A stretch of 64,000 bases of DNA from assembly GCF_003688285.1 (NCBI RefSeq), contig NZ_RCNT01000002.1, forward strand, positions 186,001 through 250,000. Reading direction: 5' to 3'. Positions within the stretch are counted from its first letter, which is position 1. Each line of letters starts with the position of its first letter. Source of the DNA: Rhodophyticola porphyridii (GTDB lineage: Bacteria; Pseudomonadota; Alphaproteobacteria; Rhodobacterales; Rhodobacteraceae). The position numbers and the translations under genes were made by a program. The notes below the pieces were generated by a model, which saw nothing but the letters and a program-made list of their open reading frames with translations, searched no databases and was not told the DNA's origin. This document shows, one piece after another, positions 23,058 to 25,037 of this stretch.

Positions 23058-23134
23058 GAAACGCTCCGCTCATTCGTACATCGTACAAATAAGATCAAAG
23101 GGCGGATCAGGACAGGGCGATCTGTAGCGGGAAG

Positions 23135-23179
23135 AAAAAAGGCGGTGACACCAAAACGGGAGGAGAAGGTGCCACCGCC
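23135..23179 (-). terminator. Rho-independent terminator ending the ccaF1-CcsR transcript
   Basis: On the minus strand GGCGGTGGCACC pairs with GGTGTCACCGCC (12 pairs with one mismatch) and is followed by TTTTTTCTT (23140 downward). The loop carries CTCCTCCC, so the terminator is also the last of six motif-bearing hairpins. Confidence 0.9.
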
Positions 23180-23218
23180 AGATCTCAGCGCCCCTCAAAG
23201 GGAGGAGGAGAGGGGGCC
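23135..23218 (-). ncRNA. CcsR-type (cuckoo) small RNA, third of three
   Basis: Two stem-loops on the minus strand: 23218-23188 (GCCCCCTC with GAGGGGC around TCCTCCTCCCTTT) and 23179-23141 (the terminator hairpin). Each loop shows the anti-Shine-Dalgarno-like CUCCUCCC. Two such hairpins in tandem define the CcsR/cuckoo RNA family of Rhodobacterales and Rhizobiales. In Rhodobacter sphaeroides these are stress-induced and affect C1 and pyruvate metabolism (established knowledge). Exact 5' end unknown. Confidence 0.85.
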
Positions 23219-23392
23219 GATATATGGGCCAGATGGCCCGGAACTTAACGGCGACCCCAAGGGAGGAGGACGGAGCCGCCGTGAATGGACCCAACCTCAA
23301 AGGGAGGAGGAGAGGTCAGGTCCGCTTTGCGGCCTCATCCAAAGGGAGGAGGAGGATGCTGCCGCGTCGCATCGCGGGCCCTAAGGGAGGAG
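23158..23392 (-). repeat. Six copies of a CTCCTCCC loop motif
   Basis: The plus-strand motif GGGAGGAG begins at 23158, 23200, 23261, 23302, 23344 and 23385. Spacings are 42, 61, 41, 42 and 41. Upstream flanks share (C)AA(A). Every copy is a hairpin loop on the minus strand. The one long spacing holds an additional GGGCCA-TC-TGGCCC hairpin (23226-23239). Confidence 0.95.
23250..23323 (-). ncRNA. CcsR-type (cuckoo) small RNA, second of three
   Basis: Two stem-loops on the minus strand: 23323-23287 (GGACC-TG-ACCTC pairing with GAGGT-TG-GGTCC around TCCTCCTCCCTTT) and 23280-23250 (GGCGGCTCC with GGGGTCGCC around GTCCTCCTCCCTT). Stem sequences differ entirely from the neighbours while the loops are conserved, the pattern of selection for loop presentation. 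Confidence 0.87.
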
Positions 23393-23400
23393 CGGGCCGC
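23336..23400 (-). ncRNA. CcsR-type (cuckoo) small RNA, first of three
   Basis: Two stem-loops on the minus strand: 23400-23374 (GCGGCCC with GGGCCCGC around GCTCCTCCCTTA) and 23358-23336 (CATCC with GGATG around TCCTCCTCCCTTT). It begins 16 bases after the ccaF1 stop, so it must be cut from the ccaF1 transcript. Confidence 0.87.
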
Positions 23401-23416
23401 GCGAATTTCGGGTGGC

Positions 23417-23641
23417 TCAGCGCTTGGCTTTGCCATAGGCGGCCTCAAGGGCCACGGATTTGATCATCGAGCGTGACAGCCCCAGATCGTTCAATTCGCG
23501 ATCCGAGCAGCGTTCCAGCTCGGTCATCGTGCGGCGATACAGCTTGTGGGCGGTGTAAGCCTCGACAAGCTGGGTCTTGATCTCCGCCAGACGGTCGCCG
23601 AAAGAGAGAGCGGATGAATGAGAGCCCGATACATAGGCCAT
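23417..23641 (-). CDS. ccaF1: CcaF1-like DUF1127 small RNA-binding protein
   Basis: 74 residues from ATG 23639-23641, with GAGGT 7 bases upstream. The C-terminal DUF1127 block is YRRTMTELERCSDRELNDLG then LSRSMIKSVALEAAYGK, Arg-rich and helical. In Rhodobacter sphaeroides the DUF1127 protein CcaF1 is encoded directly ahead of the CcsR RNAs, binds RNA and takes part in sRNA maturation (established knowledge). The same gene order is seen here, with three sRNAs following. An RpoH-type stress promoter is expected upstream of the gene, but I could not place one with confidence. An open frame continues upstream of this start, but the start chosen fits the family and the ribosome site. Confidence 0.92.
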   Translation of the reverse strand: MAYVSGSHSSALSFGDRLAEIKTQLVEAYTAHKLYRRTMTELERCSDRELNDLGLSRSMIKSVALEAAYGKAKR

Positions 23642-23849
23642 TGGTCGTACCTCAATTAAATGCCGCCAACGGTGCCCGGACCCATTTCCGAAGCGCTTTG
23701 GATGGCGATCTGTTTGCGGGGGCATTCTGCCTCTTGCCACAGAAAGATAGCCACATGCTGCGTGTGCACAATCCCCAGCAGGGGCAATGCTGCTATGCAG
23801 AAAATGCATACCCATCATCCTTGTTTTGCTGCGTTTTTGGGCAAGCGCC

Positions 23850-25037
23850 ATGAAAGTCGCCGCTTTTTCCAACCGTCAGTTCCGGCTGTTCTTCATCGGC
23901 GTGTTTTTCGCCGTGCAGGCGATCTGGATCCAGCGGGTGACAATTTCCTGGCTCGCCTGGGAACGGACTGGATCGGCGGGATTCGTGGGTCTCGTCGCGG
24001 GGCTCAGCCTGCTGCCCACCCTGCTTACCGGTCCCTTCTTCGGCGTGCTCACCGATCGGGTGGATATCCGACGCGCCTCCATCGTGACAAATTCGGGACA
24101 GGTGATCTGCATAACGGTTCTGGCGCTGTCGCTGCCCTGGATCGGGGCGCCGGGGCTGGCGCTGGCGGCGCTGGCCATCGGCATCGTCAGTTCGGCGCAC
24201 CACCCCGTCAGGATGTCGCTCGGCCCGCGTCTGGTCCCGACGGAGCTGGTGCAGCATGTGGTTTCGGCCACGGCGCTCAACTTTAACATGGCCCGCCTTG
24301 TGGCGCCGGCGGGCGCGGGCCTGATCATCGCGCAGTTCGGCGCGCCGGTGGCTCTTTGGGTCGCTGTCGCCTTCTATCTGCCGATGCTTGCGGTGTTGAG
24401 CCAGCTCCGCCCGCGGGATCTGCCGCCGCGCCAGACGCGTCCGTTCTTCGGCGAGCTTGCCGACGGGTTTCGCTATGCCCGCGACACACCGCTGATCCGG
24501 CTTGCCTTTCTGCTGACGATGATTTTCGCAACGAGCGCCCGCGGGGCGCTGGAGGTATTGCCGGTCCTGGCCGATGGCGCGTTCGAGAGGGGCGCCGAAG
24601 GTCTCGGCCTTTTGACCGCTGCGGCGGGCGGAGGCGCCGTGGTGGCCGCACTGGTCAAGGCGGTGGGGGTCGGGGCCGTGGGCGCGCGCATTCCGCTTGC
24701 GGTCTATGCGGCGGTAATGGGCGGGCAACTGGCCGTTGTCGGCATGGGGGTGGCACCGGTCTGGTCGGTTGCCCTGCTGGCGGTCGGTCTGGCGGGGTTT
24801 TGCTCCACATGGTGCGGGGTCAGCTTGCAGGCCGCGATCCAGACCGATCTGCCAGACGCATTGCGGGGCCGCGTGATGAGCTTGTGGACCGTAGCGGGCT
24901 TCGGCACCGTCGCCCTGGGGGCGTTTGCCATCGGCGCGCTGGCCGATTGGGTCGGGATCGGCGCGGCGCTGGTGATTGCCGGTCTCGCCGGAGGGCTGTG
25001 TCATTTGATCCTGATCACATGGGGTGCGCGCCGGTGA
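23850..25037 (+). CDS. MFS transporter (EntS-like, MFS_3)
   Basis: 395 residues from ATG 23850, where the family-typical start MKVAAFSNRQFRLFFIGVFF begins; an ATG 21 codons upstream has no ribosome site. About ten to twelve membrane helices are visible, with the loop GVLTDRVDIRRASIV after helix 2 (MFS motif A) and GRVMSLWTVAGFGTVALGAF in the second half. EntS-like MFS members export siderophores or drugs, or have unknown substrates. It is divergent from ccaF1 (208-base gap) and followed by mrp after 67 bases. No hint to the substrate. Confidence 0.85.
   Translation: MKVAAFSNRQFRLFFIGVFFAVQAIWIQRVTISWLAWERTGSAGFVGLVAGLSLLPTLLTGPFFGVLTDRVDIRRASIVTNSGQVICITVLALSLPWIGAPGLALAALAIGIVSSAHHPVRMSLGPRLVPTELVQHVVSATALNFNMARLVAPAGAGLIIAQFGAPVALWVAVAFYLPMLAVLSQLRPRDLPPRQTRPFFGELADGFRYARDTPLIRLAFLLTMIFATSARGALEVLPVLADGAFERGAEGLGLLTAAAGGGAVVAALVKAVGVGAVGARIPLAVYAAVMGGQLAVVGMGVAPVWSVALLAVGLAGFCSTWCGVSLQAAIQTDLPDALRGRVMSLWTVAGFGTVALGAFAIGALADWVGIGAALVIAGLAGGLCHLILITWGARR

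Follow-up and report, generated by a model that had tools for sequence, protein, structure and literature searches.

A ccaF1-CcsR-type operon with three pairs of anti-Shine-Dalgarno hairpins in Rhodophyticola porphyridii and a predicted LsrB/VtlR-type site in its promoter

Short DUF1127 genes accompanied by CcsR-like RNAs are known as CIN1, and reports on Rhodobacter sphaeroides describe processing of these RNAs by RNase E, a maturation that depends on CcaF1, and induction by stress (PMC10253847, PMC8307010, PMC8625941). In Rhizobiales, an RNA family with a variable number of CCUCCUCCC hairpins has been described (PMC3927594). NfeR1 silences ntrB through three redundant anti-Shine-Dalgarno (anti-SD) loops, and an LsrB site of the form TGCA-N6-GCAT lies at -72 to -57 of nfeR1 (PMC10746234). 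Activation by LysR-type proteins has been reported for outputs of both kinds, that is for small RNAs and for DUF1127 genes. Brucella VtlR, whose motif is given as CAATGCAGCCATGCA, activates AbcR2 together with three DUF1127 genes (PMC12595884), and Agrobacterium VtlR activates abcR1, atu1667 and vrsA (PMC7486931).

The window analysed here is a stretch of 64,000 nucleotides from Rhodophyticola porphyridii. On its minus strand, read from 23641 to 23135, a DUF1127 gene is followed by six hairpins with CTCCTCCC loops and then by a terminator (Table 1). Seen from the plus strand, GGGAGGAG occurs at 23158, 23200, 23261, 23302, 23344 and 23385, with successive steps of 42, 61, 41, 42 and 41, exactly the six copies at 41-42 base steps with one of 61 that an earlier note on this DNA had listed. 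Both strands of the whole window hold seven copies, where 2.84 are expected, and six of the seven fall inside 235 bases of the locus. A scan of the same genome returned no second close motif pair at array spacing. The minus strand of 23131-23420 folds at -140.2 kcal/mol (z -7.6), and none of 200 shuffles was equally low. The open reading frame matches PF06568 at E 1.8e-12, its stop lies 24 nt ahead of the first motif, and the last hairpin runs directly into TTTTTT, so the array does sit right behind a DUF1127 gene and close with a terminator, as had been claimed. Each motif copy also has its own loop hairpin on the minus strand; the accompanying claim that all stems are fully paired holds for three of the six, the other three having an internal loop or a bulge. 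The loops carry the nonamer CCTCCTCCC in four of six cases and the octamer in all six. The 61-nt step is occupied by a seventh hairpin that lacks the motif (GGGCC-ATCT-GGCCC).

Table 1. Features of the operon and of its promoter region, in window coordinates, listed in the direction of transcription.
Feature	Position	Strand	Basis
Inverted repeat TATGCA-N5-TGCATA, T-N11-A, LysR-type, about -74 to -57 of the inferred start	23794..23810	-	start inferred from -10
Box 1, CTGCATAGCAGCATTG, 13 of 15 bases as in TGCATGGCTGCATTG, the reverse complement of the published VtlR motif	23785..23800	-	motif from PMC12595884
Box 2, ATTGTGCACACGCAGCAT, its TTG being the inferred -35	23755..23772	-	sequence
Inferred -10 CTATCTT, RpoH-like promoter	23744..23750	-	sequence
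DUF1127 gene (CcaF1 homologue, 74 aa)	23417..23641	-	PF06568 match
Hairpin 1, type A, first pair, loop GCUCCUCCCUUA	23373..23403	-	fold, alignment
Hairpin 2, type B, first pair, loop UCCUCCUCCCUUU	23329..23365	-	fold, alignment
Hairpin 3, type A, second pair, loop UCCUCCUCCCUUU	23287..23323	-	fold, alignment
Hairpin 4, type B, second pair, loop UCCUCCUCCCU	23248..23282	-	fold, alignment
Small motif-free hairpin GGGCC-AUCU-GGCCC, between pairs two and three	23226..23239	-	fold, alignment
Hairpin 5, type A, third pair, loop UCCUCCUCCCUUU	23186..23219	-	fold, alignment
Hairpin 6, type B, third pair, with U run forming the intrinsic terminator, loop UUCUCCUCCCGUUUU	23135..23179	-	fold

The locus shares with ccaF1-CcsR1-4 of R. 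sphaeroides (CIN1) the DUF1127 gene, the tandem two-hairpin RNAs with CUCCUCCC loops in the 3' UTR, the RpoH-like promoter and the terminator. It differs in having three pairs instead of four, in its stems, in the extra motif-free hairpin ahead of the last pair, and in falling below the Rfam cut-off for CcsR1. Like ar14, NfeR1 and SmelA075 of Rhizobiales (RF02344) it has tandem CCUCCUCCC-loop hairpins, whereas those are stand-alone sRNAs of three or four hairpins, and the ar14 model scores 48.3 bits at the locus against a gathering score of 58.8. No Rfam family reached its gathering score inside 23135-23641. The search with a cuckoo-type covariance model that the earlier note had called for placed CcsR1 (RF02791) on the three hairpin pairs at 29.2, 27.5 and 14.9 bits, the last of these (E 0.41) at chance level and all below the gathering score of 65.3. 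When the same model was run against 61 genomes, 30 matched at E≤0.001 (28 of 37 from the family and 2 of 24 others) and only 2 reached the cut-off, which is therefore narrow; among the control genomes 1 of 14 had a match below the cut-off (Thermus composti). The locus is accordingly filed under the CIN1 or cuckoo kind and under neither RF02791 nor RF02344. Gene order, hairpins, loops, terminator and the covariation described below support the ccaF1-CcsR identity put forward in the earlier note, and that the locus is a further member of this known operon kind is well supported; the array adds to it a three-pair example. Separately, three close CTCCTCCC motifs occur in each of 104 stretches from predicted viral contigs (loci L156-L233), and all 15 that were chosen exceed the ar14 cut-off, at 73-83 bits; these loci may be phage-borne or belong to host flank.

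Compensatory stem changes in related genomes had been named beforehand as a test of the hairpins, and they were found. Six members of the genus were aligned, of which one is truncated at a contig end and four fall into two near-identical pairs; 95.7% of 394 cells are paired. Changes on both sides occur in 6 of 70 pairs (mean of the shuffles 2.9, with 0 of 500 reaching this number), and the covariation score is higher than in all shuffles; one of the five covariation measures, the number of further pair types, was not above the shuffles (20 vs 19.0, 170 of 500). When the partner is slid along the alignment, pairing falls to 36-48%. The double changes sit in hairpins 2, 3 and 5 of the array (helices 2, 3 and 6 of the alignment), and the remaining helices vary little and are little informative. 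The motif-free hairpin between pairs two and three is kept in the genus, with 1 unpaired cell in 30; it could be a processing or spacing element. Among 461 unique hairpins, nine of nine pairs form between a hairpin's own arms in 34.7%, compared with 2.8% when arms are swapped between arrays.

The same data bear on which strand is the RNA. If the plus strand were the active one, its GGAGG loops might bind CsrA-like proteins or mimic Shine-Dalgarno sequences; it too can fold the hairpins, with GGGAGGAG loops, and it is the more stable strand in 137 of 492 pooled hairpins, those in which the energy is not lower on the motif strand. The motif strand is nevertheless the more stable in 355 of the 492, the U-tract terminator and the DUF1127 gene both lie on the minus strand, and the genus alignment contains 44 G-U cells against 5 A-C cells, from which it follows that the minus strand is the RNA. 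We regard an active plus-strand RNA as extremely improbable.

We then compared the minus-strand array with its relatives. At least one close motif pair is present in 245 of 295 genomes of the same family (Rhodobacteraceae), by a loose pattern; the reversed control has matches too, in a minority of genome rows. From fetched loci we built 80 arrays, taken from close-pair places, from CcsR1 matches and from eleven loci chosen by organism name, and thus not a random sample. Excluded from the array table were L001-L004 (the window locus), L008, L013 and L024 (further places in genomes, or pair-only), L279 (a repeat of L015) and L283-L292 (the same places as later stretches). The exact motif is absent from L314, L322, L324 and L325; L046, from a 'Rhodobacteraceae bacterium' record, is an identical copy of L305, an array of the present family, to which the name Rhodobacteraceae is applied here for that reason, and L313 belongs to another family. 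A DUF1127 ORF precedes 70 of the 80 arrays at E<0.01, and the hairpin counts below refer to the 69 unique DUF1127-linked ones; the ten arrays outside these lack a DUF1127 match, an absence confirmed with the family HMM. The count of hairpins that the earlier note had proposed gave 2 to 26 per array, most often six (14 arrays, including four from the genus of the window) or eight (13), with an even number in 51 of 69 arrays. The DUF1127 stop lies 16-35 nt from the first motif in 60 of 69. The array of 26 hairpins, in genome G165, consists mostly of copies of one three-hairpin unit, about 140 nt long; found at G165:C1, about 334949-336100 (L015, repeated as L279), it looks as if its anti-SD hairpins had recently been amplified in tandem.

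Counting from the 3' end of each of the 69 arrays, we called odd hairpins type B and even hairpins type A. Leaving the terminal hairpin aside, and with the caution that hairpins within one array are not independent, the two types differ in median stability (B -21.3, A -17.8 kcal/mol) and in the share with a CGG-type 5' arm (118 of 186 B, 59 of 237 A). The step from A to B is the shorter one (41 vs 49), and the mean longest U run is 4.8 in terminal B hairpins and 2.0 in internal ones, which thus have no U run. The simplest reading is that the arrays arose by repeated duplication of an sRNA with its terminator, and that the internal copies lost the U run. The order in the window is A-B-A-B-A-B, and three RNAs of two hairpins each, as the earlier note had surmised, are therefore supported.

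Gene order, hairpins, covariation, strand and pair architecture are thus computed properties of the locus; RNase E processing, the role of CcaF1, stress induction and pairing with Shine-Dalgarno (SD) sequences would carry over from relatives. On this analogy, an RpoH-like promoter would give a single transcript that encodes the DUF1127 RNA-binding protein and bears three two-hairpin RNAs in its 3' UTR. As reported for R. sphaeroides, RNase E would cut this UTR into stable RNAs with help from the DUF1127 protein, and the CUCCUCCC loops of these RNAs would pair with SD sequences and block initiation on SD-rich messages. That the locus is a ccaF1-CcsR (CIN1, 'cuckoo') operon and that its loops act in this way is, taken jointly, very probable. 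Perfect GGGAGGAG-ATG sites number 26 against 3 in the control, which shows only that such SD sequences exist. By eye, the ORFs behind them include alanine dehydrogenase, formate-dehydrogenase-like subunits, a tricarboxylate-binding protein and an AraC-type regulator. As a target list these sites were insufficient, about half of them leading into ORFs too short for genes.

The earlier note had also suggested that the loops serve as decoys. Such an array would titrate an RNA-binding protein or SD-bearing messages in bulk, in the manner of CsrB, and would not silence particular mRNAs. Many near-identical loops on one transcript, up to 26, would suit this role, as would a DUF1127 partner that is RNA-binding in R. 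sphaeroides (PMC10253847). Set against it, the related NfeR1 silences ntrB by direct pairing through its redundant loops (PMC10746234), and the even hairpin counts and the A/B pairing indicate discrete RNAs. Our own findings added nothing in favour of a decoy, and nothing in favour of protein titration in particular, and we consider this role rather unlikely.

Silencing by discrete RNAs, the preferred reading, leaves the matter of what turns the operon on, and here the region upstream of the DUF1127 gene is informative. Allowing up to three mismatches, box 1 (CTGCATAGCAGCATTG) occurs in 65 of the 69 arrays and in 0 of 69 shuffled sequences, and box 2 (ATTGTGCANNNGCAGCAT) in 64 and 1, respectively, each from one shuffle; the boxes were derived from the sequences in which they are counted, and the comparison with shuffles therefore excludes chance and nothing more. 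In 60 of 69 arrays the boxes, in the forms TGCATRGCAGCATTG and TTGTGCANNNGCAGCAT, stand at an offset of 27-28 nt over an RpoH-like promoter, and CYATNTT, with at most one mismatch, follows 22 or 23 nt past the start of box 2 in 50. TTG-N17-21-YAT was present in 58 of 66 promoters compared with 9.7 shuffled, a descriptive figure for a pattern picked after viewing the source region. The patterns CTTG-N-CYAT and RpoE-like TGATC-N-TA (1 of 66 each) and CTTGA (5 of 66) did not rise above shuffles and were dropped. Both boxes are also carried by G021 and G026, the genomes that pass the CcsR1 cut-off. Of the 295 family genomes, 150 contain an exact composite pattern of the element, almost always in a single copy, and none contains its reversed control. 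The longest ORF of the divergent MFS gene (23787-25037, plus strand) begins within the two-box element; an ATG near 23850 is its likelier start.

The element is not merely part of DUF1127. Five of the ten arrays without DUF1127 carry both boxes at an offset of 27 before their hairpins, one is cut by a contig end, and four have no box pair. Of 14 elements that we fetched, most were odd ones (several per genome, or from genomes that have no motif pair). A DUF1127 ORF follows 13 of them, in four cases with no CTCCTCC inside 1300 nt, and the remaining one is followed at 78 and 118 nt by two CTCCTCCC motifs, DUF1127 being absent from the interval. This last case, L387 (G048:C7), shows the Rhizobial layout inside the family. 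The two other DUF1127 genes of the window's own genome have no box at up to three mismatches in gene orientation. We found no earlier description of the two-box promoter element in print, and it looks new.

We then asked to which protein the boxes might belong. The inverted repeat TATGCA-N5-TGCATA consists of box 1 and the bases before it. The reverse complement of the VtlR motif, TGCATGGCTGCATTG, differs from TGCATRGCAGCATTG by one base beyond R and from the window's box 1 by two of 15, and the site predicted in the window lies at about the same distance from the start as the LsrB site of NfeR1. The predicted switch would therefore be an LsrB/VtlR-type LysR protein bound near -65, at TATGCA-N5-TGCATAGCAGCATTG, and also at a second half-site that overlies the -35. 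PhaR was our first idea. The PhaR core is CTGC-N3/4-GCAG, and the CTGC-ATA-GCAG of box 1 matches it. The VtlR motif nevertheless fits better, with 13 of 15 bases in agreement; the T-N11-A repeat sits where the LsrB site on nfeR1 is reported, at -72 to -57, and the output genes (DUF1127, anti-SD sRNA) are of the same kinds as those of VtlR/LsrB. Among the papers listed, mostly off-topic, none showed a link to PhaR, the idea was set aside, and ownership of the boxes by PhaR now appears improbable. We think it equally doubtful that the block is an extended RpoH promoter to which no activator binds. Box 2 does overlap the -35, and control by RpoHI/RpoHII is reported for R. sphaeroides, but conservation at fixed spacing extends some 38 bases further upstream than box 2, and the block resembles a LysR site that was published independently. 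For the LysR-type reading we also searched 88 motif clusters, which represent the 80 loci listed among at least 120 stretches and include unrelated phyla. The VtlR reverse complement, at up to three mismatches, lies within 250 nt upstream of 16 of the 88 and of 0 of 88 shuffled; 14 of the 16 sites are 75-86 nt ahead of the first loop, all in Rhizobiales-type records. At the same threshold the motif is absent from most Rhizobiales clusters, including clusters of Sinorhizobium, Agrobacterium and Mesorhizobium.

A candidate for such a protein is encoded in the window's own genome. The LsrB relative at G000:C20:177270-178130 (L376) has 38% identity to the Sinorhizobium LsrB query, and this query matches 288 of 295 family genomes at E≤1e-40, once per genome except in G127 (two), most near 1e-70 and the weakest, in G114, at 3e-41. 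Among the 7 genomes with no match at this threshold, G022, G028, G160 and G196 have motif pairs (assembly completeness 85, 86, 96 and 64%). G004 and G083 have the regulator and no motif pair, and in G093, which also has the regulator, the promoter of the array is without the boxes. Searched back against three Rhizobiales genomes, the LysR protein found the trxB-linked LsrB gene as its best match in all three (E 9e-76 to 3e-71), with the next best matches at 1.3e-47 to 4.2e-43. Its relationship to LsrB is concentrated in the helix-turn-helix, where identity is 73-77% compared with 38-48% in eight paralogues; the remainder of the protein has 29-38%, hardly above the paralogues (27-35%). A tree of 30 LysR rows gave no clean split. 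A tree of 22 rows, which omits four candidates as well as four paralogues (of the three rows flagged as long, two are omitted, and so are two that joined one of them), places the candidates and LsrB on one side of a branch with support 99/99, with a long-branch warning; LsrB there adjoins the candidates of G004, G008 and G083.

LsrB has been termed unique to Rhizobiales, on a tree of selected species (PMC11975290). The present result disagrees with that range and suggests, from sequence comparison, that LsrB is not confined to Rhizobiales. From motif, position, output genes and orthology we consider it likely that a LysR protein of this type controls the ccaF1-CcsR promoter. The VtlR/LsrB regulon of Brucella, Agrobacterium and Sinorhizobium offers a parallel, its LysR protein activating sRNAs and DUF1127 genes through a TGCATGGCTGCATTG-like motif; in the window's organism, unlike there, the regulator gene does not adjoin trxB, the Rhizobial cysteines are missing, and control of the locus is a prediction. 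A single module probably spans Rhizobiales and Rhodobacteraceae, in which an LsrB/VtlR-type LysR and a TGCATRGCWGCATTG box would drive interchangeable outputs, namely DUF1127, anti-SD hairpins or both on a single transcript, and in which the DNA-binding half and the box would have been kept while the sensor, having no thiol switch, diverged towards a different signal. Among the papers listed, all open without subscription, we found none that states a link between CcsR/CcaF1 and LsrB, VtlR or LysR, nor one between LysR and DUF1127 in Rhodobacter; the accessible part of PMC12501420 names both sides without linking them. If the LysR link is true, it would name a transcription factor for CcsR-type RNAs and make ccaF1-CcsR part of the LsrB regulon, with the same silencing RNAs answering a different signal. 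It would also correct the published phyletic range of LsrB and join the literature on CcaF1/CcsR in Rhodobacter to that on VtlR/LsrB, AbcR and NfeR1 in Rhizobiales.

The genomic setting and the cysteines of the regulator deserve separate mention. At the trxB loci of the window's own genome and of five other Rhodobacteraceae-type genomes, a LysR gene is absent. In Agrobacterium, LsrB is described as a thiol redox switch (PMC11975290). Three LsrB proteins were compared with 15 family proteins; at least one of the three has a cysteine at four columns, and none of the 15 has one there. Five of the 15 have one cysteine elsewhere, and the relative encoded in the window's own genome is free of cysteine. 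That this protein keeps the DNA-binding domain without the Rhizobial cysteines hints at a changed signal.
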